From positions 62,001 to 126,000 of the forward strand of contig JHWW01000010.1 of NCBI GenBank assembly GCA_000621985.1: a DNA stretch of 64,000 nt, in the 5' to 3' direction. The notes under the pieces are model-generated. The model saw only the letters and a program-made list of their open reading frames with translations. It was not told the DNA's origin and ran no database searches. Position 1 is the stretch's first letter; each line of letters starts with the position of its first letter. Shown in pieces: positions 24,835-60,509 of this stretch. The stretch comes from Lachnospiraceae bacterium V9D3004 (lineage in GTDB: Bacteria; Bacillota; Clostridia; Lachnospirales; Lachnospiraceae). A program made the translations under genes and the position numbers.

Positions 24835-24866
24835 GCTATTTTCCAAATTTTGCTCCCAATGTTAAT

Positions 24867-25000
24867 GTGAAGCAGTAACCGCCCCGCAGCCACAGCCGTA
24901 AGCAACGGGTGATCTGTCTTAAATTAGACTGAGCACCATTTGCGACGGATGCGTAGCAGACGGGCTGTGGCCTGCGGGGCTGTGAACACACTGGATTCAC
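24867..25000. repeat. Composite palindromic element overlapping the stop of the first giant gene
   Basis: A 17-bp stem with one bulge (GCCCCGCAGCCACAGCC at 24881-24897 with 24963-24980) is enclosed by GTGAA/TTCAC and CAGT/ACTG pairs and encloses a GGTG...GTCT/AGAC...CACC hairpin (24908-24938). It contains GACGGATGCGTAGCAGACGG (24944-24963), the core shared with 17118-17151. The giant gene's stop codon (24997-24999) lies in the right outer arm. It probably also terminates that transcript. Confidence 0.68.
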
Positions 25001-28000
25001 TTCTTTACCTTGATCGTCACGGACGCCTTAACCTTTTTGATCTTAGCGATAACTTTAACCTTACCCGGTTGTTTTGCAGTAAGCTTAGCCTTAAGCTTTC
25101 CCGTGGACTTGATAGATGCGATTTTTTTCTTATTGACGCTCCACTTCACTTTTCCGCTAATGCCCGTAAGCTTTGCTTTAAGCTGTATGGTTTTGCCGGC
25201 CTTAACGCTCTTTTTGCAGGAGATACTGATCTTCGCCTTGCCATCCTGTGTCTTATCATACTGTGTCTTACCGCCAGGTGTCGGTGTATGTTCGGAACCG
25301 GGCTGTGACGGCTGCGCGGATGAGGAAGCAGAGCTGTTACCGGATGCCTGCGCAGAAGGTGCATCGGTTGGTTTCGATTCGTCTGCAGGCGTAGGTGTAC
25401 CCGTAGGACTTGCTTCTCCGGTCGGCTTCGGAGCATCCGTCACCTTCGGTGTGGCAGTTGCCATCGGCGTATCTGTTGGTTTCGGTGTGTCTGTTGCCTT
25501 CGGCGTATCCGTTGGTTTCGGCGTACCTGTCGGCAAAGGTGACGGGTTATCGCCAAGGTCAGTTACTTCGATCGTCCTGTTAACAACCACTCCGGCGTTA
25601 TTCTCAAGTCTGACTTCATATTTTCCGTTATATTCAATACCTATGCCATTTGACCAGGTTTCGGTTATATCCTGTTCATTTCCGGAGTTGATGAGCACTA
25701 CCTTCTTAATTCCTGATACACCGGTTGTGCAAGTGATATCAAGCTTCTTGGCACCTGAATCTTTGGATAATGTCACCTCGGGTATTACCGTATCCTGCAT
25801 GACATTTACCGTACGGGTGCTCTTATTGCCTGCCTTATCTTCTGCAGATATCGCAATATTATAATTACCGTCCTCAAGTCCCTTTATCTCGAATTCTTTT
25901 GCACCCTTATATGTCTTGTCATTATAACTGTAACTTATCATATCTTCGGATATGTCAGCGAGTTCGTCACTTACCTTAACCCTGACTACAGCCTTATGAG
26001 TTGTGATCCATGAATCAAGATCGTCTTCGGAACTTACGCTTATCATTGCCGGAGTTTTATCGGCTATTATACCGTCAGTACTTATTATCAATTCATTTCC
26101 CGCCTTGTCGGTTATCTTTGCATATACTACAGCCTTTGAATCCGGTTCTATGGTTATGCTGTCATCCGACCAGTCGTTATCATTAATTGCTTTCAGTTCT
26201 TCAATACTTACGGCTTTATCTGATTTGTAATACATGATGCTGTCGATTCCGCTTATCTCATCACTCTCATTCTCTACCTCAACAACTACAGTATCATTGA
26301 AGAACAATCCGAATGTTATCGTGTTAAGGAATTGTCTCCATGCCGATTCCCCTGCCGTTATCTCGGCTTCGGGAAGCGTCTTATCGATATTTACGGTGTC
26401 GATCGTGATTTCGCTCACATTACCGTTTGCATCTTTGAAGAACAGTTTCTCAGGGTTAAGACCTGTTCCTTCTCCTGATATGATATAGGAGTCTGTATAA
26501 TCTCCGAGAGCAGTTTCCGACACGGTATAACCATCCATTGGAATAAGCGTGACATCGGATGTGTACCAACCGTTATTCTTAAGATCTCCGTCAAGAATAT
26601 ACGCATGATCTTCCGATGCTGTCTGTGTTACATTTACGATACAGCTCTTCCTTGCTTCAAGGTGATCGTCATCACCGGGAACCGTTACCGTGACCATGGC
26701 TTTTCCGGTATTTTTACCGAGTACAGTGAATGTTATTACACCGTTATCCTGATCTTTTACGATATTTTTTTCATCTATCACGGCAATATCATCGTCATCG
26801 ATTTCGATTTCTATATCATCATAATCTTTGATTCCGATCCCCCCGACATTGATCACGGTTTTGTCATTTACCGTAATGGCGTAGTATCCTTTTGCGTATG
26901 TCAATGGCTGTGCGGCCTTATCGATAATGACACGTTTTGTGACTTCTGTTTCCGTATAATATAATGAATCATCTCTTCCCACAGTAAGTCTTATATCGTA
27001 TTCACCTGCGTTACACGGCATATTTTCACTGTATTCGTCTTTATCTGCCTCGCTTGACATCACGGTTATCGTACCTTTACTGTCTGTTACAACTTCATAA
27101 TCAGCTATCGGAGATCCGTTATAAGTGTATCTGTCATTCATCTTAAGTTCACAGTCCGGATGTTTATATATCTTCACTGATACGGAATAATTATATGTCT
27201 CACCGTCATCTGTCTTTACCGTAACAACAAGTTCATTTACACCTCTTCTTGATACAGGCACAGAAAATTCCGTTGCTCCCGATGCGGATACACTGACAAT
27301 CTTATCTTCCTTATGGACGCTGTCAACAAGCGAATAAGATATCTCCGATACATTGGCACCTTCGTTATCCTTTGCCACCGTAACTTTAATATCCGCGCTG
27401 TCATCGTATGCGTTAGCTTCGCCTTCTATCGGATCACCTGAGATATCTGACGATATACCGGGCGCTTTCTTGGTATTTTTAATGTAAAATGTGCATACAT
27501 ATGGTTTGCTCTCATTATTAAGTCCTGATTTAATTATTACGGAAATGCTGTTCTCACCGTCTGACATATTGGAAAGCTTAAGTTCCGGTACCCATTCCGG
27601 ATCGCCGTTTCCTTTGTATCTGGCTATAAGCGCGTTTTCGTCAGCCGGTTTGATCGTAACACTGTCCTTAAAATACTTTATTCCGTCCACTTCTTCGCTG
27701 TCTCCGGTGATCACTATGTCATCATCCGATATCTCGCTTCTGATATGGAACTTCCTTATCGCTCCCGATGCCGTAGCGGTATCGGTTCCGGTTGTTCGTA
27801 TTACATTGGTTGCGGTTGCAAAGCAGTAAAAATCACCCGATTCATTTACATCCGGAGTCACTTTGATCGAATTGCCTTCACCTATCTTAGTGTAACCTCC
27901 CGTAGGATTACTCTTGAACCATTCTATCGTAAGCGTTCCCTTATCGGCCTCATTTGCAAATGTTGCTTCGGCAGACATGGTTACGGATTCTCCCGGATCG

Positions 28001-31000
28001 ATACTTGTTACTAAAGGTGACTCGTCCGTATAATCCGGATACCCGTCGGTATATTCGAATTCCGGAGCTATGGCATCAGTGTCCTTCACATGTTCCTTAT
28101 GTGAATCAAGAATCACATTTGCCTGATAACAGAAATCATCCGTAAGGTACAGTCTTGCGGATAGGGCCATGGTTCCTTCACCGGTTACAGTGACCTTACC
28201 GTCTTCATCGATCGCAATATCATCAGAGTTTTCATCCGAGACATTCTCAAAATCAACCATATCAGGCGGAAGTTTGGCGGCTCCACTGCTCATTTCGGCC
28301 CAGAGTGCAAGATCAACGCTCTTCTTCTCATCAATATATATTCTGTCGCCTTCTTCTACCCTCTCATCATCAACCGTAAGATATACGCCTGTGATGTCCT
28401 TGATATCTTTGTCATCTACGGTAACATCGTACTCACTTTTTCTGTGATAATCGTCCTCAACCGTTATCTTAACTTCGTGTGATAACAATGACTTGGTCTC
28501 TTCAGGAACATCCACGCTAAAGTCAAATGAACCTCCGGTGAATCCTGACTCTTCATATTCAACCTTATGCCCGTCGATCTTAATTCCCAGCGTTACTCCG
28601 TCATCTGTAATTCCCGAGATATCAATCTTTCCGGAATTGACCGAATCTCCCGTCTGTGGCTTAAATACCTGAAGAACCGGTCCTGCGGTATCCAGTCTTA
28701 TCGATTCTTCGGCAATTGATGTATCACCTGCCTGAGTCTTTCCTATGATCTTAACTTGATGTTCACCGTCATTAAGCGGATTTCCGGATGCATCCGTAAG
28801 GCTTACCAGCGGCAGCTCTGTGGCATATATCGTACTGTCGCTTACAAGCTCATCATCTACATATACCATGGCCATTACCGGTTTATCCGAAGTAACTTTG
28901 ATTCCAAGTCCTCCTTCGGGAATATTCGTATACAGCTTGCTTGTGTACGCAGTGGATTCATCTTCTTCGGACAGATATGCAGTTTCATTGATGTAACCCT
29001 CCGGCCAGGTGATGCTTATTGCTGCAGGATCGGGATAAGGCACATATACAATATCTTCTGCTTCACACTCCGCTCCCGGTGCCACATTTGCAGCGCTTAT
29101 CACCGAACCTACACCTTCATCGGTATCTGTTTCTGAAGCAAGCTTCTTATACGGTCTTACCTTTACTTTATAATTACAGCCATCCTTTGAAGTATTTACC
29201 GTGAGGATAAATGTACCGTTTGTTATACTCTCATTTTCAACATAAGTCGATGTTCCGGTATTAACATTCTCAGTGTCAGCTTCCCCGCTGCCCTCATTTT
29301 CATTCTCTTCGGTACCGGTCTGAAGTGCTTCCGTGATATCTGCGGCATCAGACATTATTTCATTGCCGTCTTCATCAACAGGAATCGCTTCGGCATATAC
29401 TCCATCCATTGAAGAAGGATCATATCCTTCCATGGATACTTTTATTCCGGCATCACCGTCTGCTACGACATTCACCCTGCTTATGACACCCGAAGGAGCC
29501 TTAGGATTGGTATAATCTATCTTATTCTCCGTAGTCTTCTCTTCATGTATATCAGCGCCGTTACTTACTCCGTCGATCATCTCGGTCACATAATACGAAC
29601 CGCTCGGAACATATCCGGGAATATCTACCGCGAGCGTACTCATATCGATCTGATACTCATCTGCAGCATTACTGCCTCCGAATATCTCATATGCGTATTT
29701 ATCATCATCTGTTCCAAGATATATAACTTTGGTGCACTTAAGACCATTTGCCGGCACAGCGCTTACACTGTCTTCCACTCTGAGTGTTCCGTCATCATTA
29801 AGCGATGCGGTAATATTATCGATCTCGGGGATCTCATCCATGCTGAACATCTCGGAATACGATACCGTAGCTTTGTCTGAATATATTGCAAGCTCCGCCG
29901 CTCCTTTAAGCTCATCTTCCTTAAATGTCATGAGTATAAATGAACCTTTGTCATCTTCACCGAATGATATATTGGCTGTTTCGACATTGGATCCGTCTTC
30001 ATTAAGCGGTCTCAGTTCATGTTCTTTTCCGTCTATTGCCGCTTCTATATCAGACGCATCAATGCCCCGAACCGTGTCCTTAAGATCATAGTACACCTTG
30101 ATAAGTCCGTCATTTCCCGTCGCACCCGGATTAATGATCCTCAATCTTCCGTCCTCATCCACCTTAACGCTTGGAAGGCCATCCGGCGAACCGAAATGAA
30201 CACTGTTGGTGCCCGAAGTTCCGTCATCTTTTTTGACAGTTGTAGCTTTTACATTGATATCACCGTCTGTTGTTCCGACAAGATTGGCGTTACTTATTCC
30301 CGTGGTTCTGTTATCTTCACCATCCGAGTGTCCCTGTGTCGGAACAACCATATCTCCAACGGATATCTTACTTCCCGAATCACTGAAAGTAATGGTGAAC
30401 GCCATTCTTACACCCATTATCGTTGTGCTTCCGTATATCTTTTCTTTGTCGCCTCCTACTTCAACACCTGTGATCGTAAGATCCCTTCCGAACAGCAGAT
30501 CGGGAAGTGTCAGATCGAGACTTCCGAACAACTCCAGATTCGGTGCTTTCTCGCCCTTTACAATAAGTTTTGCGGACAATATTCCGTTAATCACATGCAA
30601 CATATATATCCTTGCTTTAAATGAAAATGATATATCCGGATACCATGTAAAATCTCCGTCTACACTTCGAAGTATCGGAAGCTCGCATATCTCAAGCAGC
30701 TCACCGTATACAGCCGCATGCCTAACGCCTACTGTTAATCCGATCCATCCTTTCATTACATCCACAATACTGATCTGACCGCCTAACGTAATGTCCGTAC
30801 TCGGTATATTATTCTCATCTTCTCCCGGATAGAACAGACCGTATAATCCCCTTATCTGCCCTCTTCCTCCGTGAATGAACACGGCAGGAGGAATCAAAGG
30901 CGCTCCCGGTTTAAGGCCTCCCACCTGAAGATTGATGATATTAGGCACCGGAATGCTGTGCTTCTTGGAAGCGATCACTTCAACTTCAAACTTGACAGCA

Positions 31001-33603
31001 AATGTCGCAAGCCCCATGGTACCGCTGACATTCACCAGATAATCCCTGTTGATGGTATCTATCTTCAGACCTCCCACTACTTTTGCGGGAATTGCTTCGA
31101 TGTACTTTGGCACAAAAACATTGGCATCGGCAATAATTCCGATATGCCCAACCGATCCGTCTTCTTTCTCACCGAATCTTACATCATCAACATTAATATG
31201 AGAATGAATTCCATGTCTTACGCCGTCATATTTGTCGGCATACATGAAACCTAAGCTCATCCTTCCTCCGAAGGAAATCGTATTGTAATACGTATCGTTC
31301 TTTTTTATCCTGTTAAATGTTCCGAAATCAAGTTTGAACAAGAATCCCGTGATCTTCTGAACCACGTTACCCAAACCGTTCAATTCAATCTTTACCGGGT
31401 TTGACTTGCCGCTTGAAGTATCTTTTTTGTCAAGCGAATACTCTCTTCCGTCCTTAAGTTTGATGAACGATTCGTCTCCCCACAGGTCATGCGAACCGCC
31501 GAGGATTCCGGTTTCACCGTCAAGCCTTACCTGAACGCCGTCTATCTTGCCGTTCTTATCATATGTATAATCGATCGAGAAATCATTTCCGCTGTATGTT
31601 ACTATGCGGTTGATGATTATATCTTCCTCGGATGCATCACCCACGATAGGCACAGTGTAAGTGCCGTTCACATTACTTCTGTACAGATTACCCGAGAAAG
31701 TAAGAAGATATTCGTCTCCCAGTTTATCAAGTTCCGATGCATCGTTAAACATCTCTATCCTGTATCTGGTGCCGGCATCTTTTCCTTCCTTTTTGATAGC
31801 AACACCGCCTACCGGAGGATTGACAAGATTCTTATCATCACTGAATATCAGTTTCATATTATCGCTTGTTATTCTCTCCGGAAGCCCGACTTCTTCTACG
31901 GTAAGTGATGCGCCGGGCTTAATGATGAGCCTGTACTGTCCGACCGGCATCTCGTCGGCAAAGTTGATTATCATTCCCGTATAATCCGAATTGAATGTTA
32001 TACGTGAAGAATCGATCACCGAACTGTCACCTGTGGCCATATTCTCAAGGATCAGCTCCCATTCCGTCTTGTCTTTGAGAATCTCGTAGCCTTCACCCCT
32101 GATAAAAAAGTTTCTGTTGCCGTTGTAATACAGGTATTCCGGTCCGCCGGATATTATGCTCACAGCCGGTTTCTTTCCGGTATATCCCGGTGCCAGTACA
32201 CTTCCCTTTGCCGAACATAACGCCATACGGTCAAGGAATGCGTAATCATTCCCGTTATCCGATGAGCTGTATTCATACACATTCAATGCATATTTCAGAT
32301 ATCTTATACTTGGCGGAAGATGCTTTACATGTATCTTCCAGTTAATGAATTTGGTCTGTCCGACTTCAAAATTGGTTATATGTATAAGATCTTTTCCTTC
32401 ATTTTCCTCAAGAGCAAGGTGCTTACCGTTCTCATCCGTAATGTCATTATAATCAACCTGAAGGAATTCCTCATCCACCATAAGCTGAACCGCCACATTG
32501 GCGCGAAATACCGAGGCGGGCATCGTATTGCTAAGCTTCGTCTGAATATTCAGAATATTGTCCTCATAAGCCGATGATTCGCCCATGCTGTTATCTTTCA
32601 GCACGAACATATCCTTGTCAGCTTTTACGGTCATCTGCATGGTATCATTCTCTGTGACGTTATTATTGGCACTGATCCCATAGAAGAAGCTGTACTCGGC
32701 TCCGTTTCCGGGTGCTATATTGTCCTCATTCCAATACAGTGCAACGGCGCTGTCTGCAGTCTTGTAAGCGTTACTGTTGTCGACAAGCTTCATATTTTCG
32801 TCAATATCAAATTTCCACATATTGGAAGCCATGTCAAACCAATGTCCGAATACCATGGAATCCGGCTTATCAAACTTCTCATCCGGATAACCGTATGCGG
32901 CAACTCTGGGTGCATAATTGTTGTCAATCGCCCTGAATTCAGAAGCTATCTCATTCTTTCCAAACTGCGCAGCCCTCGTATACTGCTTATAGGTTCCGTT
33001 AACTCCGTTTTCCGCCATCTCGTATACAGCCCAGTCCTGTGCTCCGAGACACGTATCGAGAACCATACGAAGTCCTGCCTTAACATATTCATCTTCAGCG
33101 ATCCCCGTATTACTTATCTTGTAAGAGATCTGAACGGCTCCAAGCCTGTCATCGGCAGAATCCATCAAAAGCCTGATCTTCTGGGTTACATTCACGTTCT
33201 CTTCGGTTATCGCATAAGTCGATACAACCGTGTTGCCGTCTTCTATATGCGGTTTATTAATGAACATTCCTTCATGAACGTTACCGTATATATAATCTTT
33301 ACCGTCTATACGTATTGTTGCAAATGATGTGGCATCACCATCCGGATCATATAATAATCTCTTATTGTTATCGGTCTTTGTAAGCACATCGCCTTCGGAT
33401 GTCTTAAGAGTATATCCTCCGTTTTTCCTGCTCACCGATAAGGTTATAAAGCTGTTACCGAGCGTAACCGTATCAGCCGTCTCTTCTTTGATCCTGATAC
33501 TGTTGGTTATTCCTGCCTGCGCCACTTCAGGAAGGGAAGCAACCATAGCAAATGCCATAACACAAGCAGTTATTCTCTTATATATCTTATTCATTATTCG
33601 CAT
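24997..33603 (-). CDS. Giant secreted Ig-like repeat protein 1 (about 2868 residues), function unknown
   Basis: I recognise no catalytic family. A signal peptide (basic start, hydrophobic stretch, cleavage near VAQA) opens the protein. Residues about 40-500 form a beta-rich domain (VTLGNSFITLSVSRKNGGYTL). About 790-1110 is a Gly/hydrophobic beta-rich region. About 1400-2660 holds several Ig-like modules ending in motifs such as DKAGN. A Pro/Thr-rich linker (25270-25550) precedes a C-terminal BIG2-like Ig domain of about 76 residues, nearly all Lys/Ser/Ile/Val. There is no LPXTG motif or C-terminal membrane helix, so attachment may be non-covalent. The ATG at 33603 lies eight bases after GGGGGG; two codons upstream would be too close. 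It follows the second giant gene by 15 bases and is almost certainly cotranscribed. Likely a surface or matrix protein. Confidence 0.85.
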   Translation of the reverse strand: MRIMNKIYKRITACVMAFAMVASLPEVAQAGITNSIRIKEETADTVTLGNSFITLSVSRKNGGYTLKTSEGDVLTKTDNNKRLLYDPDGDATSFATIRIDGKDYIYGNVHEGMFINKPHIEDGNTVVSTYAITEENVNVTQKIRLLMDSADDRLGAVQISYKISNTGIAEDEYVKAGLRMVLDTCLGAQDWAVYEMAENGVNGTYKQYTRAAQFGKNEIASEFRAIDNNYAPRVAAYGYPDEKFDKPDSMVFGHWFDMASNMWKFDIDENMKLVDNSNAYKTADSAVALYWNEDNIAPGNGAEYSFFYGISANNNVTENDTMQMTVKADKDMFVLKDNSMGESSAYEDNILNIQTKLSNTMPASVFRANVAVQLMVDEEFLQVDYNDITDENGKHLALEENEGKDLIHITNFEVGQTKFINWKIHVKHLPPSIRYLKYALNVYEYSSSDNGNDYAFLDRMALCSAKGSVLAPGYTGKKPAVSIISGGPEYLYYNGNRNFFIRGEGYEILKDKTEWELILENMATGDSSVIDSSRITFNSDYTGMIINFADEMPVGQYRLIIKPGASLTVEEVGLPERITSDNMKLIFSDDKNLVNPPVGGVAIKKEGKDAGTRYRIEMFNDASELDKLGDEYLLTFSGNLYRSNVNGTYTVPIVGDASEEDIIINRIVTYSGNDFSIDYTYDKNGKIDGVQVRLDGETGILGGSHDLWGDESFIKLKDGREYSLDKKDTSSGKSNPVKIELNGLGNVVQKITGFLFKLDFGTFNRIKKNDTYYNTISFGGRMSLGFMYADKYDGVRHGIHSHINVDDVRFGEKEDGSVGHIGIIADANVFVPKYIEAIPAKVVGGLKIDTINRDYLVNVSGTMGLATFAVKFEVEVIASKKHSIPVPNIINLQVGGLKPGAPLIPPAVFIHGGRGQIRGLYGLFYPGEDENNIPSTDITLGGQISIVDVMKGWIGLTVGVRHAAVYGELLEICELPILRSVDGDFTWYPDISFSFKARIYMLHVINGILSAKLIVKGEKAPNLELFGSLDLTLPDLLFGRDLTITGVEVGGDKEKIYGSTTIMGVRMAFTITFSDSGSKISVGDMVVPTQGHSDGEDNRTTGISNANLVGTTDGDINVKATTVKKDDGTSGTNSVHFGSPDGLPSVKVDEDGRLRIINPGATGNDGLIKVYYDLKDTVRGIDASDIEAAIDGKEHELRPLNEDGSNVETANISFGEDDKGSFILMTFKEDELKGAAELAIYSDKATVSYSEMFSMDEIPEIDNITASLNDDGTLRVEDSVSAVPANGLKCTKVIYLGTDDDKYAYEIFGGSNAADEYQIDMSTLAVDIPGYVPSGSYYVTEMIDGVSNGADIHEEKTTENKIDYTNPKAPSGVISRVNVVADGDAGIKVSMEGYDPSSMDGVYAEAIPVDEDGNEIMSDAADITEALQTGTEENENEGSGEADTENVNTGTSTYVENESITNGTFILTVNTSKDGCNYKVKVRPYKKLASETDTDEGVGSVISAANVAPGAECEAEDIVYVPYPDPAAISITWPEGYINETAYLSEEDESTAYTSKLYTNIPEGGLGIKVTSDKPVMAMVYVDDELVSDSTIYATELPLVSLTDASGNPLNDGEHQVKIIGKTQAGDTSIAEESIRLDTAGPVLQVFKPQTGDSVNSGKIDISGITDDGVTLGIKIDGHKVEYEESGFTGGSFDFSVDVPEETKSLLSHEVKITVEDDYHRKSEYDVTVDDKDIKDITGVYLTVDDERVEEGDRIYIDEKKSVDLALWAEMSSGAAKLPPDMVDFENVSDENSDDIAIDEDGKVTVTGEGTMALSARLYLTDDFCYQANVILDSHKEHVKDTDAIAPEFEYTDGYPDYTDESPLVTSIDPGESVTMSAEATFANEADKGTLTIEWFKSNPTGGYTKIGEGNSIKVTPDVNESGDFYCFATATNVIRTTGTDTATASGAIRKFHIRSEISDDDIVITGDSEEVDGIKYFKDSVTIKPADENALIARYKGNGDPEWVPELKLSNMSDGENSISVIIKSGLNNESKPYVCTFYIKNTKKAPGISSDISGDPIEGEANAYDDSADIKVTVAKDNEGANVSEISYSLVDSVHKEDKIVSVSASGATEFSVPVSRRGVNELVVTVKTDDGETYNYSVSVKIYKHPDCELKMNDRYTYNGSPIADYEVVTDSKGTITVMSSEADKDEYSENMPCNAGEYDIRLTVGRDDSLYYTETEVTKRVIIDKAAQPLTYAKGYYAITVNDKTVINVGGIGIKDYDDIEIEIDDDDIAVIDEKNIVKDQDNGVITFTVLGKNTGKAMVTVTVPGDDDHLEARKSCIVNVTQTASEDHAYILDGDLKNNGWYTSDVTLIPMDGYTVSETALGDYTDSYIISGEGTGLNPEKLFFKDANGNVSEITIDTVNIDKTLPEAEITAGESAWRQFLNTITFGLFFNDTVVVEVENESDEISGIDSIMYYKSDKAVSIEELKAINDNDWSDDSITIEPDSKAVVYAKITDKAGNELIISTDGIIADKTPAMISVSSEDDLDSWITTHKAVVRVKVSDELADISEDMISYSYNDKTYKGAKEFEIKGLEDGNYNIAISAEDKAGNKSTRTVNVMQDTVIPEVTLSKDSGAKKLDITCTTGVSGIKKVVLINSGNEQDITETWSNGIGIEYNGKYEVRLENNAGVVVNRTIEVTDLGDNPSPLPTGTPKPTDTPKATDTPKPTDTPMATATPKVTDAPKPTGEASPTGTPTPADESKPTDAPSAQASGNSSASSSAQPSQPGSEHTPTPGGKTQYDKTQDGKAKISISCKKSVKAGKTIQLKAKLTGISGKVKWSVNKKKIASIKSTGKLKAKLTAKQPGKVKVIAKIKKVKASVTIKVKK
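25270..25550 (-). repeat. Pro/Thr-rich coding repeats in giant protein 1
   Basis: Imperfect 12- and 24-base units encode TPKPTD/TPKATD-type repeats, then a Ser/Pro/Gln-rich stretch. This is a typical extended wall-spanning or linker segment between the Ig-like array and the C-terminal BIG2-like domain. Confidence 0.8.
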
Positions 33604-33618
33604 GATCATTTCCCCCCT

Positions 33619-36600
33619 TTACAGTACAACCACGTGATAGATATGTATCGACAGGTCTTTCAGTTTCAGCATTATCGTGTATGTACATCCTCTTTCCGCA
33701 CTTATGCTCATTCCGTCAACCTTATTACCCTTATACTTCATCTGGGCTCCGGTGTAGTCACCCTTCGCATAATATACGGATGCCTTAGCCGGTACTCCGC
33801 CAAGTGTTAACGTTGTATCATCGGCAGAATAGTACCCGTTCTCCTTAAGAGGCGTACCGTTAACGCCGAATTCCTTAAGTTCCGGATATGTCTTGACTTC
33901 CGCTACGGTAAGTATGAATATGAATGATACTCTGCTCTTTCTTCCCGCTTTGTCATAAGCTTCGACCTGTGCGGTGTATGTTCCCTTCATAAGCATGCCG
34001 TCAGAAGTCACATATTCGGGCAGAATAATATTCTTCGTTATCTCAGAAGGAGCGCTCACATCATCGGACACTTCAAAATATCCCGCAAGTATATCTTTAA
34101 GCGATGCTGCTTTATCTTCAGTCGTACGTCCTGTAAGCTCCGCTTCTCCTACCGCAATTGTTTCACCGGGGCTTGTGATCTTTGGCGCTTCCTCATCAAG
34201 TCCGGTTACCATGATCTCCTTTTCTGTCTCATTACCGGCTGTGTCGGAAGCTTTGATCACGCATGATCCGTTCTTATCTATTGTAAGATCATACTCTTCT
34301 CCCGCTTTAACCAAACCGGTTTTATATGACATGATAACATTACCCTCATCGTCTGTTTCCACAACTTCTTCGGTGCCATTTCCCGCGTACCATATATATC
34401 CGTCTTCGGTAATGCTTGCTTTATATGCCTTGTGGGTAGCTGAACTCTTAGCTGAATCTTCGGTAATCGTAAGCTCCGGAGCCTCGGTATCAAGTGTGAT
34501 ATCCACTGATTTTTCCGTGGATCCTGCTGCCATATTATAAGCCTTAACAGAATATGTTCCGCTCTCTGCAACACAGAATGAAGCTTCTCTTGTAAGCACC
34601 ATCGTAATGGGGCCGTTATCCTTAAGGAGCTCTCCTTCATCGAATTCCACGGCATCCTTCGGCGGTTCAATATGTATATCACAATCTGCCGAATAACTTC
34701 CGGCAGGAAGCGAATCGATCGCCTTTGCGGTAATCTTATACATGTTGCTTTCAGGTACATATTCCTTTGTAAGTATCAGATCAGGCGGTTCCGGATTAGA
34801 TCTGATCTTATCCGCCGATACGGTTAGTCTTGCCTTACTGCCGTTAACCGCAGTTGCATCAAGTATTACCGTCGCATTCTTATTGAAGTTTATGCTTGCT
34901 TTCTTCTCATTTGCATATACCGTAAGGTCTGATCTCGTGCCGTCAGGATTAAGAAGTTCAACCGATTCCAAGTAAAGATTCGCGCTGATATCCACAAGCT
35001 GCGGTTCGCCCCAGTCGGGTGTTTCGGGGGTTCTTGCCTTTTCTTCAAGAATAAGCGGTTCCCTGTCGACCTCAACCTGTCTTGTAGTTATATCAGCTAT
35101 ATTACCCTTGCCATCGGTAAGTTTGAATGTAAATGTTCCGCTCTGTGTGAACAGATGATAATATTCAACCTTCTTACCCGCGTCCACTCCGGTCTTCTCC
35201 AATGTCTGAATGCCGTTCATATCCCGAAGCGAAACACCTTCGGGAAGGTCGATATATGCCTTTGTCTGCGTAAGACCGCATCTTACATATCTGACATTAC
35301 CCGTTACCAGTTGTCTGTCGGTGATATTGCTTACTGTAATATATTGTTCAACCTTTTGTCCTGACAGATCTTCTATGGTAACCTTAACCGATGCGTTTAC
35401 GGAAAATATTACAGTTAACGGATCATTCTCATCAAGAACCACTTTTTTATCGGAGACTGCTGTTGTGCTGTTGTAATCTTCCAGTGTGACCTTAAGCGGA
35501 TTAATCTCCCCCGCCGTATCAAGATCTATTGCCCGGATCTTTGCATATACCTTTGAATTGGTAAGAGGCGCTGATTCGGGCACACCGGTATTATCGGAAT
35601 ATTCGGTAATATCAATGGTCTCTGCATCATTTCTGATATAATAATTGATGCCGTCTATCACAGGCGCCGAATAATCCTCATCATCTGCTTCACGTTCCGA
35701 TATGCAGTCAACCTCTGCCGGAATATCCATTACATATCCGTCAGCATATCTTACCGTGAACTTATATGATCTGTTCTCCGTAAATGTATACGAGTCTCCG
35801 TCTGTAGACAATATCTCGGTTCCTTCAGGAATGATCAGCCGTACATCTACAGGGTCATACTTATTGGAACTGTCCGTGATTGTCTTGGTTCTTGAATATT
35901 GTAATTCATATTCATGCCCCGTTCTTGCAAAACCACCGACATCATAGGTAAAGTTGTTAATCCTTACACCGGAACCTTCATTCTCATCAGGTGAATATAT
36001 ATTGATAACAAATGAAGCATTACCGCTTGCCGTTACTTTCGCATACTTATATACGGTAACTGCGGCTTCACCTTCACCTACCGTCATCATCCTCAATTCA
36101 TCATCTGTCGGAGTGATCTCATATCCATCACCCTTAAGCGAAGCAAATGTCATTCCATAAGCATTCTTGTAACCGCTGTCAAGCTCTATCGTTACTGTGC
36201 CGTCATCATTATATGTCTTCTCGATGTCAGGCACCCATGACTTGTCAACAGCGTTAAGCAAAAGCGTCTGTTTTCCCGTATCACCTTTCAGGTCGACGTA
36301 ATTAATTGTATATTTTCCATTGTAATCGAAATATACTTTTGTTGATGTAGTATATTCTGCCGGATCATCTTCATCGTCACCGGATTCCCTTGTTATGATC
36401 TTAAGCGGTTCATTGAATACAAGAGTCTGGGCGTTGGTTCCCACAGCCGGTGTAAATGATATCCTGTTTCCGTCAGGCAGTGCAGGCACCGTATAACCTA
36501 TCGTCTTATATACATACTGGCCGGTTCCGTTACCGAATCTGAAAGTTATAACGTAATTACGGGCAACCTTGTCAGCCGGAAGAAGAATGTTAGTCTTTAC

Positions 36601-39600
36601 TGTATACCTGTCGGTATCGGTCAGACCGTCATTTGCACTGCCGGAGTATACAACGTTCACCATTCCGTTACCGGGCGCCTTATCATAAATCTCAGGTACA
36701 TATTCGGCTTCCTGCCACATACTTGTATAATCATTCTCATCTTCATCAGTATCCTCAGAATATATCTGCTTATACGTATCCGATGAAAATGCGTATTCGA
36801 CCGTAGGAATATACCCTTCGTCTCCGTTCGAATTAAGATCAAGTTCGAATCCGGGTGTGTTATTGGCATCATTTCCCTCATATATGATCGTACCGAATCC
36901 GTCATATGAATCCTGTATTGTCTTAAGACCTGCCATATCGATATCATCATTCGTTACAATTACAGGAATGTTCTCACCCATACCAGAAGAAGTTGTTACC
37001 GTGGGGGCATGAACTTCGGCATCTTCTGACAACGTGATCTCACTCTCATTACCTAGAGAATCCGCTACCGTGACAGTTAATGTATCATTCACTCCGATCC
37101 ACTTCGAATAATCTTTTAGCAGTACCGGTTCTTCAAGATCTTCAGGCGTTCCGCCGTTAACAGATTCACTTGTTACCGTTATCTCATCAATACCGCTGTG
37201 GTTATCTCTGATCTTTGCGGCTCTTACGTACTTCTTATCTGTTGCGGGATCATTCTTGTCCGGTTTCACAACAGAATAAAGTTCTGCCGAAGGGCCGACA
37301 CCGTCTATCGTATATTTCCTTACGATGAATCCCGATTCATTACCCGCAGCATCGATCACCTGTGATACAAGATATATATTATTGCAATCCTTCGGACATG
37401 CGGGAAGAGTAAGATTCTCTTCAAGTCTGTCTCCATCCCATCTGTATCCCCAGTTATTAAGAAGCGGTCTGTTATCATCATCCGTCTTAACATTAACGTA
37501 ACCTGAACCGTCGTACTTCTTCATGTATTCTTCTATTGTCAGTTCTTCGTAATCATTGACCCAGCCTTCGCCTTCAACATAATGTTGTCCGGTATAACTT
37601 TGAACGGTCGGGACAGTGATATCATCTAACATGTCACTGATGAAATTACAGTTGTCGTCAATGAATTCATCCGTAACAAATGCATATCTGAGTATTCTCC
37701 TGTTCTTTCTGTCAGTGTCCTTTATCTCAGGTTCATTCTTAAGAACATACGTTGCGATCCCGAGATATTCACCGCTTCGGTATACATCTTTTGTTTCATC
37801 TGCCCAGACGGAATATGTATATATCAGTTCATCACTGACACTTGTATAATACGAGAAATCAATACCGTTTTCCATACTCCACAGATACAAAAGGCAGTTG
37901 AATTCCACATATTCATCCTTACCCGAAGACGGTTCGGGATATGAATCCGGCATCGATTCGTGGTACTCATTGTAGCTTTCAACATAATCATCATATTTAT
38001 CTGCATAATAATTCTTCTTGTAAACCGACAACTCAGCATCAATATCGATATCATTATCTTCTTTCCACTGCTTAAGCTCTTCGTACGTAACAGTCTTTTC
38101 TTCTGTTTCACTTCCTATCGAAAGAGAAACATCCGGTGCGCTCCTGTCATAAGTATATACTGCAAGCGGCACTTCTACAGACACCATCTCATCCGCATTA
38201 TCAGTCTCGCTTCTGAAGCCGTTTTCATCCCTGTTACGATAACGACCCGAATAATGATCTTTGGAAGTTATAACAACCTGTTTGCCGTCTTTATCAGTAA
38301 GATATGTTGCAATATGAACATAAGCAGCATAGGTTCCGTCCTTCGGAAGAGTATACGATGTTATCTTCGTTACTTCATCGTCTTCATTCGTAAACTCTTC
38401 TTCCGATTCCATATATGCATTGATATCAACGGTTATTCCTTTTGTATTAACCGTGTTATCCGTACCGTCCTGATATCTTTTATAAGTAACATCCTCGAAT
38501 GAACACGGTAACGGTATTGTACGAACAGGCTTATCTCCCTTTTTTTTGTAACCGAATATCTTATCTCCTTCCACATCATCCACAGGCCATATCTCGATAT
38601 AAGAATTGGCATAATCAATATCCGTATCGGGATTAATATACTCCGATGCATTTTCTCCGAGCACGAATGTAACAGGTTCAACTATGCTGCGATGCACCGA
38701 AGAAAATGTTGAGTTCCCCTGATATGCATCATAACCGTTCAGTGAATTGTATTCTGAATCCAGTTCAAGGAACAATCTGTTTGTATTGGAATACGTGCCG
38801 TAAGTGCTTATATCACTATCCTGCAGTTCAAGATCGGGATACTTTGGTCCTCTCTTAACGAATTCCTCATCAAGTATATCAAGAGTATATCTTTTAACCG
38901 ATCCGGTTACCTCCTCACCGATCTGTTCATTGACATTCTCCGTCACCGTGTCTTCCTTAAATGATCCGTCATCGTTATATGAGATATCATGTATTAAATA
39001 TCTGGTCGTCTTTGTAGTATACGGAGCAAATATAAGATCGCATTTCCACTGCCATGAAGCTCCTCCGAACACACCGAGAGAACCGTAGCGCGGCTTGTCG
39101 GGATCCGCATACTCGTCTTTACTTACTGTATAATCACCGTTGCAGCTAAGCTTTATATATTCTTTTCCGTCAGCCTTCGTATATATGACCCCGTTCATCC
39201 TTAAAAGTTCAAGTTCATCTTCGCTAAGTCCGCCCTCAGCCGGAGTCCACAGATATTCAAGCGGAATCGCGCTCGTATCGAATACTATATCAAGCGGATC
39301 CTCTTCAGACGCTTTAAGTCTTCCTCCGATAAGTTTTCCGGCATTCGGCATTCCATCATTTCTTATAAAATTCCAATTGCCTGCATTCCAGTATATGTCC
39401 GTCGTCGATCTGATAACGAACTTATAACTGTTGGTTCTCTTAAGCCTTCCGCTTCCGTCTTCAAGGAACGAACCCGGCGCATAATCGATCTCAATATCAT
39501 CTTCATTCGCCTTTGAGTATTCAACGAACTGCTCAACGTAATGATTACCGTCTTCATCAGTGCTCTTTATCGGTCCCACATCAGAGGTATCCATATACAG

Positions 39601-42600
39601 ATCACAGTATTCGACACTGCTCAACCCGTTACTCTCATCATGATATGCCACGTATGCGATCTTATCAAAAGCCACTCTCACAGGCACGTCAAATGATACG
39701 AACATCTCATCGCAGATCTCATAATCATATATGTCCTGTTCGGGAATATATACCATTGCATGTCCATTATTACCGTAGGTAAGTTTGATATCCACATCTT
39801 TCGTCTCATTCCCCTGAAGATATCTGCATGAGACTTTATATGTCGATTCCGCATATCCTCCGTTTTCTTTTGTTGCTTCCGATGGATCATCAAGTGGCTT
39901 AAGACTGTATGCAGGCTTGCCTTTTTCCTTTAATGTGTTGTAATCTATGTTAAGTCTGTCCGATACGGTCTCTTTATCATCAAATGCAGGATCATTACTG
40001 ATAAGCAGCTCATCTTTGTTAACCTCGTCACGTTTAAGTCCCAGATCAGCGGGGTCAAGCAGATATACTTCATATTTGCCGACGTCATATGATGAACTCT
40101 TATAGCGCGGCAAAACCCGAAGCGTGATATTACCGGGCATCTGTTCTTCGGCCTGTTGGATGTATTTTCTTACTACCGGTTCCATCCTTTCCGTCGATAT
40201 CATTGTCTCAATATACGGATGCACAAGTCTCATCCATCCCGTCTTGCTGTTAATATTACCTGCCTCATCAACACCTTCCAGTGTTACCGGTACTATGACA
40301 TCTTCTTTTGTTCCCGCTTTGCTGTTATCAACCCTTTTTGCTTCCACGACAACATTACCCGAACTCCAGTACAATGGATCAAGAGTTATTACTTTTGCAT
40401 AATTACCTGTTGTCCCTGCTTCAATATTGCCTTCGAATACCGGATCATCAAGCCCCTCTGCAATTACCCTTATATGAACTTTCTCATTTACATTACCGAT
40501 CTTAAGCACTGCATCCTGCATGGGTGATGCGCAAAAATCCGTGTCATCACTGTTATTCACATAATTGATCACTGCCCTGGATGGTATATCAACGTTATCG
40601 GAATGTGAATCCTCAATGTTCATATACACGTTAGGCGCAGACTTATCATAACTTACATTGGTATTCTGCGGAATGATCGCCGACTTCCAGTCGGATATAA
40701 GCTCCAATCTGTTTGTATCTTCACTATAACTGAATACTCCGTAATTCTTTGTATGAGTCATCTCATCTCCGGCGAGATTCTTAACCGTTCCTTCAAAATA
40801 TATTGAATTAGGGTCATAAATGCCGTCATCGTCACAACATACAAGATTAACATTCTTATGCCCATACCAGCCGGTTATCGGGACGTCATAATGAATAACG
40901 GTATTCTCGGATTCCGCTTCGTTATTGATCTGCTTCATTGCCGCTTCCGAATCGGATGTTGTATTGATCTCATCGGATTCTCCGTATGTGATTATTGTAT
41001 ATTGGGGATTTCCTTCATTATCCCTGTTCGTATCATCAAGTTTTGCAACACATATATCTATAAAACCGCCGTCAAGGGCTCTGTCAAGAGTGCCGTTCTT
41101 TCCATATCTGTACAAAGCTGTGGGAAGCTTGTCAAGGTACACTTCCGTACCGTTATAGACAGTCCATCCCGAAGGATCAAACGTCTCTCCCGCATTACGT
41201 ATCTCACTGCTTTCACGAACCACTTTATAGAATGTGGTATAACCATCTCCGGATCTTGCGCCGGTAATGGTCATATAAGCCGCACCCCTTTTATTATTCT
41301 GAATTGAAGGAGTCGCTTCGTTACTTCCAAGCATGGGTTTATTGGATGCATCATTCTTATCGATCCTTAATGAAGCATTAAGCGGTACCATTCTTGCGTT
41401 GGTATATACTCCTCCGCTAACTTTGGTACTGTATTTTTTCGTTTCATCGTTAAATGTGTAATTACGTCCCACATACTGAAACGGAATAAGGTATTCATCA
41501 AGATAAAATACCGGTGTTGGAACAGATGTATCAAGCTTACAGTTGAATACGACATCTATACCGACATTATCACCTTTTTTAACATAACCGCTCTTATTAT
41601 CCGTATGAATATTGATCTCTTTTATCTTCGGATCCGAACCGTCATATACAGGCATTCGTTTCACATCATTGCCGTTGATATCTTTGCCTGCTACCGGCTG
41701 AAGCGGAAAACCTTCTTCAACAACCATTCTGTTGCCGCCCGCATCCTTAATCGCTCCTTTATACATTCTGTCCGTCTCATTAAGCTGAAGAGATTTTCTT
41801 GTGAATATTTTGTTATATGTCTCTCTCTGCTTCGGATCGAACTTCTGACATGCATTGATCCATTCCATATTACCGTCACGTCCGGTCCTTGTTACCTGCT
41901 TACCCAGTGCCGGTATTGAAAATGAAGTATGTTTCCACCTCTCATCCAGATCAAGCTTAAAAATCAGACAACTGTCTGAAACTTCCGTTCCGCTGTAATT
42001 AATACTGCTCATAGTTCCGCAGTAATCCGCAAATACGGTACTGTTCTTCGTATTCTTTTCCACTCCCGATGAATCGGTGATCGCAAGCGCAAGTCTCGGA
42101 TACGCCCTAAGATAAGACGATCTTGTATATCCGTACTTGCTCTCGCTGTAAGCCGTCAGCTCCGAATCCCTGTATAACATCTTGCCAAGCTTTACCGGCC
42201 CGTCAAATCTGAGAACTACATACATATCATCGGCGTCCGCTTTGGTATATGAGAGAATACCCCTGTGATCTTTTCCGTCTTTTGCGGTATCCCCTGCAGG
42301 AATTGGAAGATTGGTAAGATATGCCTCCTCAAGCATGGTTTCTTTGGAGGGAAGCAAAAACTTAAGAGCCGATAACCTTACTTCATCCGCCATCTTTGAA
42401 GAAAGTTCAAGATACAGATATCTGAAACCGTCACTTTTATCCTTATTGATCTTATTGATATCTATATTTCCAGACATTGTAAGAGTCTGTCCGGCTGTCG
42501 TACATATCTGTGACGCGATCTCTTTTCCTGTACTGTCTTTTAATACAACTTTAAATCCCTTCCCCGTACTCTTTCCGGAAATGCTGTCTACTTTAATTGA

Positions 42601-43263
42601 TATATTGTAATCAACGGTTTTTTTACTTCCGTCAATGAGATCGTTTACCATGACCGCTCTTGTATATTTTTCATTTTTACCAAGCTTCATGGAACCCGGA
42701 AGAAAACCGGCACCTGATTCGGATACACTGGTAGCGTCGCTTACAACGAATCCGTGTCCTCCGGCAAGATAATTCTGACTTGAGATTATCTTGCCGCCCC
42801 GGTTGAAAGACGTATATCTGCTTTTTGAATCATAAGTGATCTTATTATTACCTTTAAGCTTATTATTCAGTACGTAGATCTTATTAATGATATCTTTTTC
42901 CTGTCTTATTATATCAAGACCTTTTCGCTTATCATTGTATGTACTGCAATAATTATTCCAATAGGTATCTCCGTCATTAAACAGATATTCAAAATAATTG
43001 TGAGCAGCAGCATCCGCTCTCTCATTCTCGCCGTCAGCACTCACAATACTAAGATTAGGCATCAGATACAGATCGTCGTAATCATCGAACTTAACATTAT
43101 CCGGTTCTGCAGCCATGGCAACGCTTACGTCATCGTTACTTTCGCCTCCCGTAAATAACGTTCGGATAAGGCCTGTAACGTTCATGTCAAGCACAAGCAA
43201 TACCGCGAGCGCACATGCGATAATCCTCCTGATAAGAATAGTTGCCTTCTTCCGCTCCTTCAT
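33619..43263 (-). CDS. Giant secreted Ig-like repeat protein 2 (about 3214 residues), function unknown
   Basis: No catalytic family recognised. The chosen ATG at 43263 follows an AAGGAGG site and gives a signal peptide with a long basic n-region (MKERKKATILIRR) and hydrophobic core. The N-terminal 900 residues contain a distinct beta-rich region with many Tyr/Asn/Asp. From about residue 900 on, Ig-like modules recur, with openings such as DKSAPNVYM, DRSAPDVSL and DTEAPELTI and endings such as DAAGNES and DTAGNET. The protein is strongly acidic overall and has no LPXTG motif or C-terminal anchor. The frame is open 43 codons further upstream through a 12-bp repeat tract, but that region lacks a ribosome site and overlaps a possible promoter. 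First gene of a two-gene, 18-kb operon. A structural or adhesive surface role is inference. Confidence 0.84.
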   Translation of the reverse strand: MKERKKATILIRRIIACALAVLLVLDMNVTGLIRTLFTGGESNDDVSVAMAAEPDNVKFDDYDDLYLMPNLSIVSADGENERADAAAHNYFEYLFNDGDTYWNNYCSTYNDKRKGLDIIRQEKDIINKIYVLNNKLKGNNKITYDSKSRYTSFNRGGKIISSQNYLAGGHGFVVSDATSVSESGAGFLPGSMKLGKNEKYTRAVMVNDLIDGSKKTVDYNISIKVDSISGKSTGKGFKVVLKDSTGKEIASQICTTAGQTLTMSGNIDINKINKDKSDGFRYLYLELSSKMADEVRLSALKFLLPSKETMLEEAYLTNLPIPAGDTAKDGKDHRGILSYTKADADDMYVVLRFDGPVKLGKMLYRDSELTAYSESKYGYTRSSYLRAYPRLALAITDSSGVEKNTKNSTVFADYCGTMSSINYSGTEVSDSCLIFKLDLDERWKHTSFSIPALGKQVTRTGRDGNMEWINACQKFDPKQRETYNKIFTRKSLQLNETDRMYKGAIKDAGGNRMVVEEGFPLQPVAGKDINGNDVKRMPVYDGSDPKIKEINIHTDNKSGYVKKGDNVGIDVVFNCKLDTSVPTPVFYLDEYLIPFQYVGRNYTFNDETKKYSTKVSGGVYTNARMVPLNASLRIDKNDASNKPMLGSNEATPSIQNNKRGAAYMTITGARSGDGYTTFYKVVRESSEIRNAGETFDPSGWTVYNGTEVYLDKLPTALYRYGKNGTLDRALDGGFIDICVAKLDDTNRDNEGNPQYTIITYGESDEINTTSDSEAAMKQINNEAESENTVIHYDVPITGWYGHKNVNLVCCDDDGIYDPNSIYFEGTVKNLAGDEMTHTKNYGVFSYSEDTNRLELISDWKSAIIPQNTNVSYDKSAPNVYMNIEDSHSDNVDIPSRAVINYVNNSDDTDFCASPMQDAVLKIGNVNEKVHIRVIAEGLDDPVFEGNIEAGTTGNYAKVITLDPLYWSSGNVVVEAKRVDNSKAGTKEDVIVPVTLEGVDEAGNINSKTGWMRLVHPYIETMISTERMEPVVRKYIQQAEEQMPGNITLRVLPRYKSSSYDVGKYEVYLLDPADLGLKRDEVNKDELLISNDPAFDDKETVSDRLNIDYNTLKEKGKPAYSLKPLDDPSEATKENGGYAESTYKVSCRYLQGNETKDVDIKLTYGNNGHAMVYIPEQDIYDYEICDEMFVSFDVPVRVAFDKIAYVAYHDESNGLSSVEYCDLYMDTSDVGPIKSTDEDGNHYVEQFVEYSKANEDDIEIDYAPGSFLEDGSGRLKRTNSYKFVIRSTTDIYWNAGNWNFIRNDGMPNAGKLIGGRLKASEEDPLDIVFDTSAIPLEYLWTPAEGGLSEDELELLRMNGVIYTKADGKEYIKLSCNGDYTVSKDEYADPDKPRYGSLGVFGGASWQWKCDLIFAPYTTKTTRYLIHDISYNDDGSFKEDTVTENVNEQIGEEVTGSVKRYTLDILDEEFVKRGPKYPDLELQDSDISTYGTYSNTNRLFLELDSEYNSLNGYDAYQGNSTFSSVHRSIVEPVTFVLGENASEYINPDTDIDYANSYIEIWPVDDVEGDKIFGYKKKGDKPVRTIPLPCSFEDVTYKRYQDGTDNTVNTKGITVDINAYMESEEEFTNEDDEVTKITSYTLPKDGTYAAYVHIATYLTDKDGKQVVITSKDHYSGRYRNRDENGFRSETDNADEMVSVEVPLAVYTYDRSAPDVSLSIGSETEEKTVTYEELKQWKEDNDIDIDAELSVYKKNYYADKYDDYVESYNEYHESMPDSYPEPSSGKDEYVEFNCLLYLWSMENGIDFSYYTSVSDELIYTYSVWADETKDVYRSGEYLGIATYVLKNEPEIKDTDRKNRRILRYAFVTDEFIDDNCNFISDMLDDITVPTVQSYTGQHYVEGEGWVNDYEELTIEEYMKKYDGSGYVNVKTDDDNRPLLNNWGYRWDGDRLEENLTLPACPKDCNNIYLVSQVIDAAGNESGFIVRKYTIDGVGPSAELYSVVKPDKNDPATDKKYVRAAKIRDNHSGIDEITVTSESVNGGTPEDLEEPVLLKDYSKWIGVNDTLTVTVADSLGNESEITLSEDAEVHAPTVTTSSGMGENIPVIVTNDDIDMAGLKTIQDSYDGFGTIIYEGNDANNTPGFELDLNSNGDEGYIPTVEYAFSSDTYKQIYSEDTDEDENDYTSMWQEAEYVPEIYDKAPGNGMVNVVYSGSANDGLTDTDRYTVKTNILLPADKVARNYVITFRFGNGTGQYVYKTIGYTVPALPDGNRISFTPAVGTNAQTLVFNEPLKIITRESGDDEDDPAEYTTSTKVYFDYNGKYTINYVDLKGDTGKQTLLLNAVDKSWVPDIEKTYNDDGTVTIELDSGYKNAYGMTFASLKGDGYEITPTDDELRMMTVGEGEAAVTVYKYAKVTASGNASFVINIYSPDENEGSGVRINNFTYDVGGFARTGHEYELQYSRTKTITDSSNKYDPVDVRLIIPEGTEILSTDGDSYTFTENRSYKFTVRYADGYVMDIPAEVDCISEREADDEDYSAPVIDGINYYIRNDAETIDITEYSDNTGVPESAPLTNSKVYAKIRAIDLDTAGEINPLKVTLEDYNSTTAVSDKKVVLDENDPLTVIFSVNASVKVTIEDLSGQKVEQYITVSNITDRQLVTGNVRYVRCGLTQTKAYIDLPEGVSLRDMNGIQTLEKTGVDAGKKVEYYHLFTQSGTFTFKLTDGKGNIADITTRQVEVDREPLILEEKARTPETPDWGEPQLVDISANLYLESVELLNPDGTRSDLTVYANEKKASINFNKNATVILDATAVNGSKARLTVSADKIRSNPEPPDLILTKEYVPESNMYKITAKAIDSLPAGSYSADCDIHIEPPKDAVEFDEGELLKDNGPITMVLTREASFCVAESGTYSVKAYNMAAGSTEKSVDITLDTEAPELTITEDSAKSSATHKAYKASITEDGYIWYAGNGTEEVVETDDEGNVIMSYKTGLVKAGEEYDLTIDKNGSCVIKASDTAGNETEKEIMVTGLDEEAPKITSPGETIAVGEAELTGRTTEDKAASLKDILAGYFEVSDDVSAPSEITKNIILPEYVTSDGMLMKGTYTAQVEAYDKAGRKSRVSFIFILTVAEVKTYPELKEFGVNGTPLKENGYYSADDTTLTLGGVPAKASVYYAKGDYTGAQMKYKGNKVDGMSISAERGCTYTIMLKLKDLSIHIYHVVVL

Positions 43264-43285
43264 ATTCTTCCTCCTTGCTATATCC

Positions 43286-43357
43286 GATGCATTTTCTGAT
43301 GCTATGTTTGATTCTATGTTAGATTTTATGTTAGATCCCATATCTGATCTTATGTCA
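43286..43357 (-). repeat. Six 12-bp tandem repeats upstream of giant gene 2
   Basis: Six consecutive units of the form GAT(G/T/C)(C/T)(A/T)(T/C)... fill 43286-43357, for example GATTCTATGTTA and GATTTTATGTTA. They lie 23 bases upstream of the chosen start codon, probably in the 5' untranslated leader. Read in the frame of the gene they encode SNIx-like tetrapeptides, so a translated N-terminal extension cannot be excluded. Copy-number change would be in frame. Confidence 0.75.
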
Positions 43358-43387
43358 GTGTTTTGGATCACATAGTACATACATGTT

Positions 43388-43415: not shown

Positions 43416-43454
43416 AATGTATAGTAACCCCAGGGCTACCTTTTCACATATTTA

Positions 43455-43494
43455 GAAATGAGCAGAGGTGAAAGCCTCTGCTCATTTCTTTTTG
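43455..43494. terminator. Stem-loop between the thioesterase gene and giant gene 2
   Basis: GAAATGAGCAGAGG (43455-43468) and its exact complement (43475-43488) form a 14-bp stem with a 6-base loop. The T-tract (TTTTTG) is on the plus-strand side; on the minus strand only TAAATATG follows. It most likely ends the glgC-to-thioesterase transcript, perhaps also blocking antisense transcription from the right. Confidence 0.72.
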
Positions 43495-60386: not shown

Positions 60387-60444
60387 GATTAATTTCAATT
60401 TTCCTACAATTTTCTGTGCTTCATGCACACCATTAATATACATT

Positions 60445-60475: not shown

Positions 60476-60509
60476 AACTGTTCAACAACTTTTTATAATG
60501 GGGAGAATA

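Follow-up and report, generated by a model that had tools for sequence, protein, structure and literature searches.

Gut and soil Bacillota commonly encode giant exported proteins, which have mostly been treated gene by gene, and the locus described here raises the question of whether two such proteins encoded side by side are parts of a single system. It lies within a window of 64,000 nucleotides (nt), the whole stretch of DNA analysed (G000:C9:62001-126000), from the 3.4 Mb draft genome of Lachnospiraceae bacterium V9D3004, and comprises an upstream and a downstream giant gene, referred to as P1 and P2 respectively. An initial annotation, made from the letters of the window, had proposed that the two products form a joint surface fibre or matrix with one protein attaching the other. 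The data below identify P1 and P2 as a conserved pair that constitutes a widely spread two-gene system, and with moderate confidence we regard them as probable obligatory halves of one surface structure, in which a wall-bound P2 base would carry a docked P1 arm of immunoglobulin (Ig)-type domains.

33619..43263, minus strand: P1, 3214 amino acids plus stop; secretion signal and Ig-like chain, no C-terminal wall or membrane anchor seen
24997..33609, minus strand: P2, 2870 amino acids plus stop, possible start at 33603; conserved core, Ig-like region, Pro/Thr linker and lysine-rich C-terminal module

In the list of open reading frames both the P1 frame (33619-43392, minus strand) and the P2 frame (24997-33609, minus strand) ran without interruption, confirming the annotated pair of adjacent intact giants, and open frames as long as these (9.6 and 8.6 kb) are far beyond chance. 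The ATG at 43263 was taken as the better P1 start because AAGGAGGAAG lies immediately 5' of it, and the P2 ATG at 33603 is preceded by AGGGGGGA; at these two starts a good ribosome site was found ahead of each gene, as had been annotated. The annotated spacing of 15 nt from the P1 stop holds for the P2 start at 33603, the first P2 ATG being only 9 nt away, and both proteins are probably made from one transcript.

Conservation of this arrangement was surveyed with a profile (A1) of the P2 N-terminal region and two peptide patterns, which yielded a sample of 51 loci, all from named genomes. Each locus was compared in all six frames with a profile of the last 200 residues of P1. For 42 of the loci this profile was stripped of the locus itself and of rows at least 60% identical to it; for the other nine (eight matches and one miss) the whole 43-row profile was used and close relatives may have helped. 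A match to the P1 C-terminus was observed at 50 of the 51 loci, in the frame directly upstream on the same strand and no more than 20 residues from its end, and the interval between the end of P1 and the beginning of the P2 match ranged from an overlap of 16 nt to a gap of 134 nt. The window shows the same arrangement: the frame immediately upstream of its full-core P2 closes with the P1 terminal domain. Homologues were thus not single and scattered, which the initial annotation had named as grounds for abandoning a two-protein system; partners were found together and in the same order, in Lachnospiraceae, Flavonifractor, Sedimentibacter, Vallitalea, Thermincola and Paenibacillus. The only miss (L115) has the first P2 domain alone, carried by an archaeal Methanolobus protein of 463 residues (L115 9830-11221).

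Two genome surveys, which do not depend on how the loci were chosen, gave the same picture. Among 398 genomes of the phylum with completeness of at least 90%, a profile of P2 residues 32-1112 matched in 102 and at full length in only seven; in the other 95 the match lay nearly always inside the first 400 P2 positions, mostly in proteins of about 650-760 residues. The complete P1 C-terminus was found in exactly the same seven genomes, at 110 bits or more, the next best match (71 bits) covering the first, generic Ig domain only. P1 and P2 coordinates were adjacent in all seven; five of these loci were read, and that of G398 is cut by the contig. In the family survey (299 genomes, nearly one per genus, with P1-end matches listed to an E-value of 1e-12 only) the complete P1 end was present in six genomes at 144 bits or more, with the next match at 82, and the same six carry the whole P2 core region as judged by single-sequence search and reading of the loci. 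Five more family genomes matched the first 300-370 P2 residues only and had no complete P1 end. The profile of the P1 C-terminus was needed because a single-sequence P1 search recovered two of the 299 genomes, the window itself and its closest relative. Across both surveys the full P1 end-domain profile matched solely in genomes with P2.

The features of P1 relevant to its possible role are as follows.

43117..43263, minus strand: P1 N-terminal secretion signal of about 49 amino acids, cleavage site uncertain; from hydropathy and the sequence read by eye
33871..34221, minus strand: P1 penultimate Ig-like domain (P0001 residues 3058-3174), a generic type matched also in genomes without the pair
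33622..33870, minus strand: P1 terminal domain (P0001 residues 3175-3257), the diagnostic partner domain and proposed docking site; from alignment A4 and a model with predicted local distance difference test (pLDDT) values of about 92-98

The annotated presence of a signal peptide on each protein stands for P2, which by eye has a standard secretion signal (ending ...VASLPEVAQA with G following the cleavage site), and less clearly for P1, whose N-terminus shows a strong hydrophobic stretch with a less obvious cleavage site that may alternatively be an uncleaved N-terminal anchor. A motif scan found no LPXTG motif in either window protein and no hydrophobic stretch of membrane strength was present beyond the first 80 residues of either, in agreement with the annotated lack of such anchors. 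The Ig-like modules ascribed to both proteins were weak in the window proteins scanned whole: nothing in P1 passed a Pfam cut-off, and Big_13 and Big_2 remained below cut-off in P2. They were supported by a Paenibacillus P1 relative, which passes the cut-offs of five Ig-type families, and by the last 260 residues of P2, in which Big_2 scored above cut-off when scanned alone, confirming that P2 ends in a BIG2-like domain behind a Pro/Thr linker. Searches of the whole window proteins against Pfam, NCBIfam and PDB gave little else besides weak Ig-type matches in the C-terminal part of P2 and one match within its low-complexity linker.

The last 200 residues of P1 were modelled with confidence (pLDDT 93.1) as a pair of small beta domains, the terminal one with a short helix at a QMK motif. 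Fold matches were to general Ig-, Rib- and cadherin-like repeats and included Sap S-layer domains, with TM-scores of at most 0.34 among the 50 matches listed, and the terminal domain had no Pfam match in the P1 proteins scanned. A membrane-type C-terminal tail was found on none of 46 P1s (47 upstream frames were scored, 46 of them P1), and none of the 46 showed an attachment module at its C-terminal end or reached the strength of the P2 tails. Uninterrupted P1 relatives were 1177-2891 residues long, and those of P2 1896-3330.

The corresponding features of P2 are the following.

28090..33609, minus strand: P2 conserved core, residues 1-1840, common to relatives in other genera; from occupancy, alignments A2 and A5, and Pfam
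32671..33462, minus strand: P2 N-terminal domain, about residues 50-313, a galactose-mutarotase-like supersandwich by fold comparison, with inferred boundaries
30337..31371, minus strand: P2 beta run, residues 747-1091, about 20 predicted strands, mostly amphipathic, without Ig-sized breaks
25255..25542, minus strand: P2 Pro/Thr linker, about residues 2690-2785, by eye
25006..25221, minus strand: P2 C-terminal Big_2-type lysine-rich module, residues 2797-2868, net charge +27 in the last 80 amino acids; proposed wall attachment

Complete P2 C-ends were compared in alignment A6, which contains the window and 38 further C-ends and excludes P2s that were interrupted or cut by a contig; the other alignments comprise, besides the window, 45 of the 51 loci (A2), 42 (A3), 38 (A4) and 34 (A5). 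The 39 ends comprised 21 with SLH repeats, ten with a hydrophobic tail followed by lysine or arginine, two with a dockerin (L077 and L138, one by Pfam match and the other read by eye), three with a lysine-rich module and three of unclear type, and two of the 39 weakly matched the LPXTG anchor family. The lysine-rich ends are the Big_2 module of the window, an fn3-like module in L069 and an LRR-like module in L114. Window P2 has no SLH match and carries the lysine-rich Big_2 module in its place. Tails similar to this one were found on further large proteins, at 43-56% identity within the genome and at up to 65% within the genus, as would suit a shared attachment module, and the Big_2 module of P2 is a candidate for binding the wall. 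The annotated idea of one protein attaching the other was strengthened because P2 ends in attachment modules in most relatives and P1 does not; contact between the two, and the fibre or matrix itself, are matters of interpretation to which we now turn.

Conservation runs in opposite directions in the two proteins, P1 having a variable N-terminus and conserved last 60 residues and P2 being conserved over residues 1 to about 1840 and variable thereafter. In P1, residues 1-1100 had an occupancy of 0.08-0.69 and the last 50-60 residues one of 0.98, and in P2 occupancy was mostly 0.73-0.98 to residue 1800 (with dips to 0.50-0.66) and mostly below 0.5 beyond. These gradients fit a chain that runs from the cell through the P2 anchor, the P2 core and the P1 end to the P1 tip. 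Distances between P1 C-termini correlated with those between P2 proteins (r 0.88, 38 sequences, a value reached in 0 of 2000 permutations), and those of the P1 terminal domain correlated more closely with P2 (r 0.89, 34 sequences) than with its own neighbouring Ig domain (r 0.73).

On this basis both proteins are exported, and P2 would form the base, bound to the cell by a C-terminal module that differs between lineages (SLH repeats, a membrane- or sortase-type tail, a dockerin or a lysine-rich Big_2 module). In window P2 attachment would be by the lysine-rich Big_2 module behind the Pro/Thr linker, leaving the conserved N-terminal 1840 residues to face outward. P1 would be an unanchored Ig-like chain that docks on the P2 core through its conserved C-terminal domain and contacts the surroundings with its variable N-terminal part, the distal tip. 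The anatomy of the sequences, the pairing, gene order and co-occurrence, the types of P2 C-end and the conservation gradients are direct observations, to which docking, orientation, a single transcript, an adhesive or binding function and wall binding by the lysine-rich module are added by inference. Here a pair of genes has been held together over large distances, with a defined candidate docking domain of approximately 80 residues and exchangeable attachment ends, and what were anonymous Ig-like giants become one testable system in which a short construct suits a direct binding test.

Several observations weigh against a docked pair. The gradients are partly an artefact, since seven P1s are cut by a contig end at 5' and eleven P2 loci at 3', and the 47 P1 rows include one unrelated frame (L115). 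Joint inheritance alone predicts a high r, so that the distance correlation is support rather than proof; the lower r of the penultimate P1 domain, which is noisier, may reflect saturation; and no P2 sub-region stood out as a partner surface (partial r at most 0.31). Three P2s (L071, L075 and L109) end without recognised attachment, and several of the 39 C-ends belong to closely related carriers (e.g. L083, L108, L111, L112 and L113), making the counts non-independent. Partial matches extending into the terminal part of the P1 profile occurred without a full P2 in several genomes, e.g. G678 (profile positions 15-172), G423 (12-156) and G434 (64-182). Finally, the check on broken frames showed at least five of the 50 paired loci to be interrupted (L071 in P1; L085, L103 and L114 in P2; L102, which contains N's, in both), possibly through errors in draft assembly. 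Partial terminal-domain matches such as that at G678:C6:28792-29268 are possible distant relatives.

The alternative that best withstands these data, although we consider it fairly unlikely, is that P1 and P2 are separate co-expressed surface proteins serving one process, for example by binding the same polysaccharide, without contact. Operon-like spacing and co-inheritance do not require contact, and the P2 N-terminal domain is similar in fold to the mutarotase-like domain found in carbohydrate enzymes, making a ligand-binding role of its own possible. Against this stand the co-occurrence without exception in two surveys, with the full P1 end profile confined to P2 genomes, and a P1 that has no visible attachment module of its own.

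The evidence for that domain comes from an AlphaFold2 model of P2 residues 32-1112 (mean pLDDT 78.7, predicted template modelling score 0.52), which is nearly all beta. Among the Foldseek matches at a probability of 1.00 were OpgG, the periplasmic domain of YidC, cellobiose phosphorylases and a protein of aldose-1-epimerase type, the best match by E-value being an Ig-domain structure of PrgB; as these matches came without ranges, the galactose-mutarotase-like assignment of approximately residues 50-313 is a putative one. The structural check suggested initially for the P2 N-terminal region yielded a meaningful fold match for this domain only, and the core beyond it gave scattered long-beta fold matches with low TM-scores. 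A PDB profile search with the P2 core produced a single match at chance level (E 0.28). Past residue 1100, Pfam matches among 35 members were to Glucodextran_B (20), Big_6 (15) and fn3 (13), and none of these types was found there in window P2. The N-terminal domain also occurs alone in other proteins, and the common secreted proteins of approximately 670 residues (e.g. L133) match the P2 profile over roughly its first 400 positions; they lack the rest of the core and are common (up to 95 of 398 genomes, with no full P2) whereas the pair is rare (seven of 398). In L133 (4161-6164) the domain is accompanied by a cohesin match just below cut-off, and the domain itself has no Pfam match.

If P1 does dock on P2, a very tentative proposal, itself unlikely to hold, is that P2 residues 747-1091 form one unbroken, largely amphipathic beta sheet, a barrel- or groove-like extracellular cradle on a Gram-positive cell, with the P1 end domain in it or capping it. 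The model of this region has 20 strands of at least six residues (mean length 10.8), in which hydrophobic/polar alternation averages 2.94 compared with 1.8-2.4 elsewhere in the model, three of the 20 showing little alternation (<1.0). Such a cradle, if real, would be a new non-covalent lock joining two separately exported giants into very long surface arms, spread across Bacillota and combined with the host's own wall module.

A matrix coat resembling an S-layer, with many copies of P1 and P2 forming a lattice tied to the wall through P2 by SLH repeats or similar modules, appears very unlikely. SLH repeats at 21 of the 39 P2 C-ends and the Sap S-layer domains among the many Ig-like fold matches of the P1 C-terminus are in its favour; however, the other 18 ends have no SLH match, the P1 matches are of general Ig-like type at the low TM-scores given above, and from general knowledge the size and Ig-chain build of these proteins are unlike a lattice subunit.

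A system in which a partner subtilisin-like protease cuts P1 or P2, giving a releasable tether or delivered factor, would be in keeping with the short secreted subtilisin-like gene that follows the pair, immediately or almost so, in 13 of 35 paired loci, but is highly improbable given that no such gene lies beside the pair in the window or in the other 22 loci and that the window genome's subtilases are on other contigs.

Part of the carriers nevertheless add their own protease and regulator to the pair. Counts were made by hand on loci with at least about 900 nt after P2 (35 loci, L102 being left out and L103 included) or at least about 1000 nt before P1 (38 loci, including L087, L103 and L107). 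The protease profile was built from seven of the 13 loci, and in L070 the downstream protease is in two pieces. A LuxR-type regulator lies upstream in ten of 38 loci, several with AAA and TPR parts; its profile was built from eight of the ten and is not independent for those eight, each of which also matched GerE in Pfam, and L118 (where the gene sits downstream) and L097 (response-regulator-like) were not counted. The protease of L086 (16808-18223) carries SLH repeats of its own, and in Vallitalea (L079 3-2369) a longer subtilase-type frame, outside the 13, lies two genes upstream of P1 besides a LuxR-type regulator. The nearest relative with both genes complete (G176) is 46-48% identical in the P2 core and has the regulator right before P1. 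Neither a subtilisin-like protease nor a LuxR-type regulator lies beside the pair in the window; the window genome has four subtilase-type matches on other contigs, in open frames of 616-879 residues. A LuxR-type regulator for the window pair was considered and rejected, the sole match to the G176 regulator being on another contig (C2) with no P1 or P2 match around it.

The pair can be compared with several known systems; apart from the features tested here, these comparisons rest on general knowledge. With the giant Ig-like (Big-domain) adhesins of Gram-positives it shares a Sec-type signal, a long Ig-like chain and a wall attachment module, and it has their exported tandem Ig-like modules, with Ig matches above cut-off in a P1 relative and weak in the window; it differs in being split over two co-occurring genes and in the 1840-residue P2 core, which is more than Ig repeats. 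Like the SLH-bound anchoring scaffoldins of cellulosomes, which work by cohesin and dockerin, it would combine a wall-bound base with an exported partner held by a terminal domain, and SLH repeats on many P2 bases and a dockerin end on two P2 relatives add to the likeness. In contrast to scaffoldins, no cohesin was found in the window proteins, four scanned relatives or the 39 P2 C-ends, no enzyme domain was present in the proteins scanned, and neither cohesin nor dockerin had a Pfam match in window P1 or P2. As in sortase-assembled pili, with their backbone, tip and base, a multi-protein surface projection is envisaged, and the two weak LPXTG-family matches among P2 C-ends recall them; unlike pili, the window proteins lack LPXTG and no polymer backbone was seen. 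No sortase was found among the subset of neighbour proteins scanned. A paper on huge proteins (PMC11573180) discusses huge surface proteins in general terms. No named pair resembling P1 and P2 was recognised in the open-access literature, subscription literature lying mostly outside the search, so that absence in print is not established.

The surroundings of the pair in the window include two hairpins.

43454..43489, strand not assigned: strong hairpin between the upstream thioesterase gene and P1, with a T-run on the plus strand
24865..24995, minus strand: long, very stable RNA hairpin directly 3' of the P2 stop (z -4.8)

Because the T-run of the first lies on the plus strand, a terminator role for minus-strand genes is only plausible, and no terminator-type T-run was scored for the second. 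Four promoter-like sites were found where shuffled sequence gave an expectation of 2.7, which is not clearly above it. Genes matching SpoVG and FlK-type thioesterase lie upstream of the pair, with an HU-like gene (read by eye) and an S4-domain gene downstream.

Genes on the thioesterase side were kept in the six relatives whose stretch was compared. G001 (L148) has no giant genes here, the thioesterase being followed by a SpoVT-type gene and HU within approximately 1.5 kb, and in G004 (L146 9573-11182) the thioesterase is separated from the SpoVT-type and HU genes by an AbiEii-type gene and a partner frame, close to where the giants lie in the window; the thioesterase/HU junction may take up insertions. 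Relatives without giants at the kept spot indicate that the pair was either gained in the window or lost in the others, and base composition gave no hint of either. Nine other species of the genus searched with P2 gave no match to residues 1-1700, the matches in the genus falling either in the C-terminal tail or, for G002, in the Ig-like part (residues 1716-2686, 33-41% identity). Mobile-element origin was dropped, since plasmids and phages contained nothing matching the P2 region and viral contigs no relative of it.

Another large frame (60423-63998), open at the window end, carries DUF285, BspA-type LRR and Listeria-Bacteroides repeats. The genome as a whole contains 99 Big_2 family matches, in open frames of up to 4646 residues, with several further giants of 4293, 3050, 2995, 2815 and 2749 residues.

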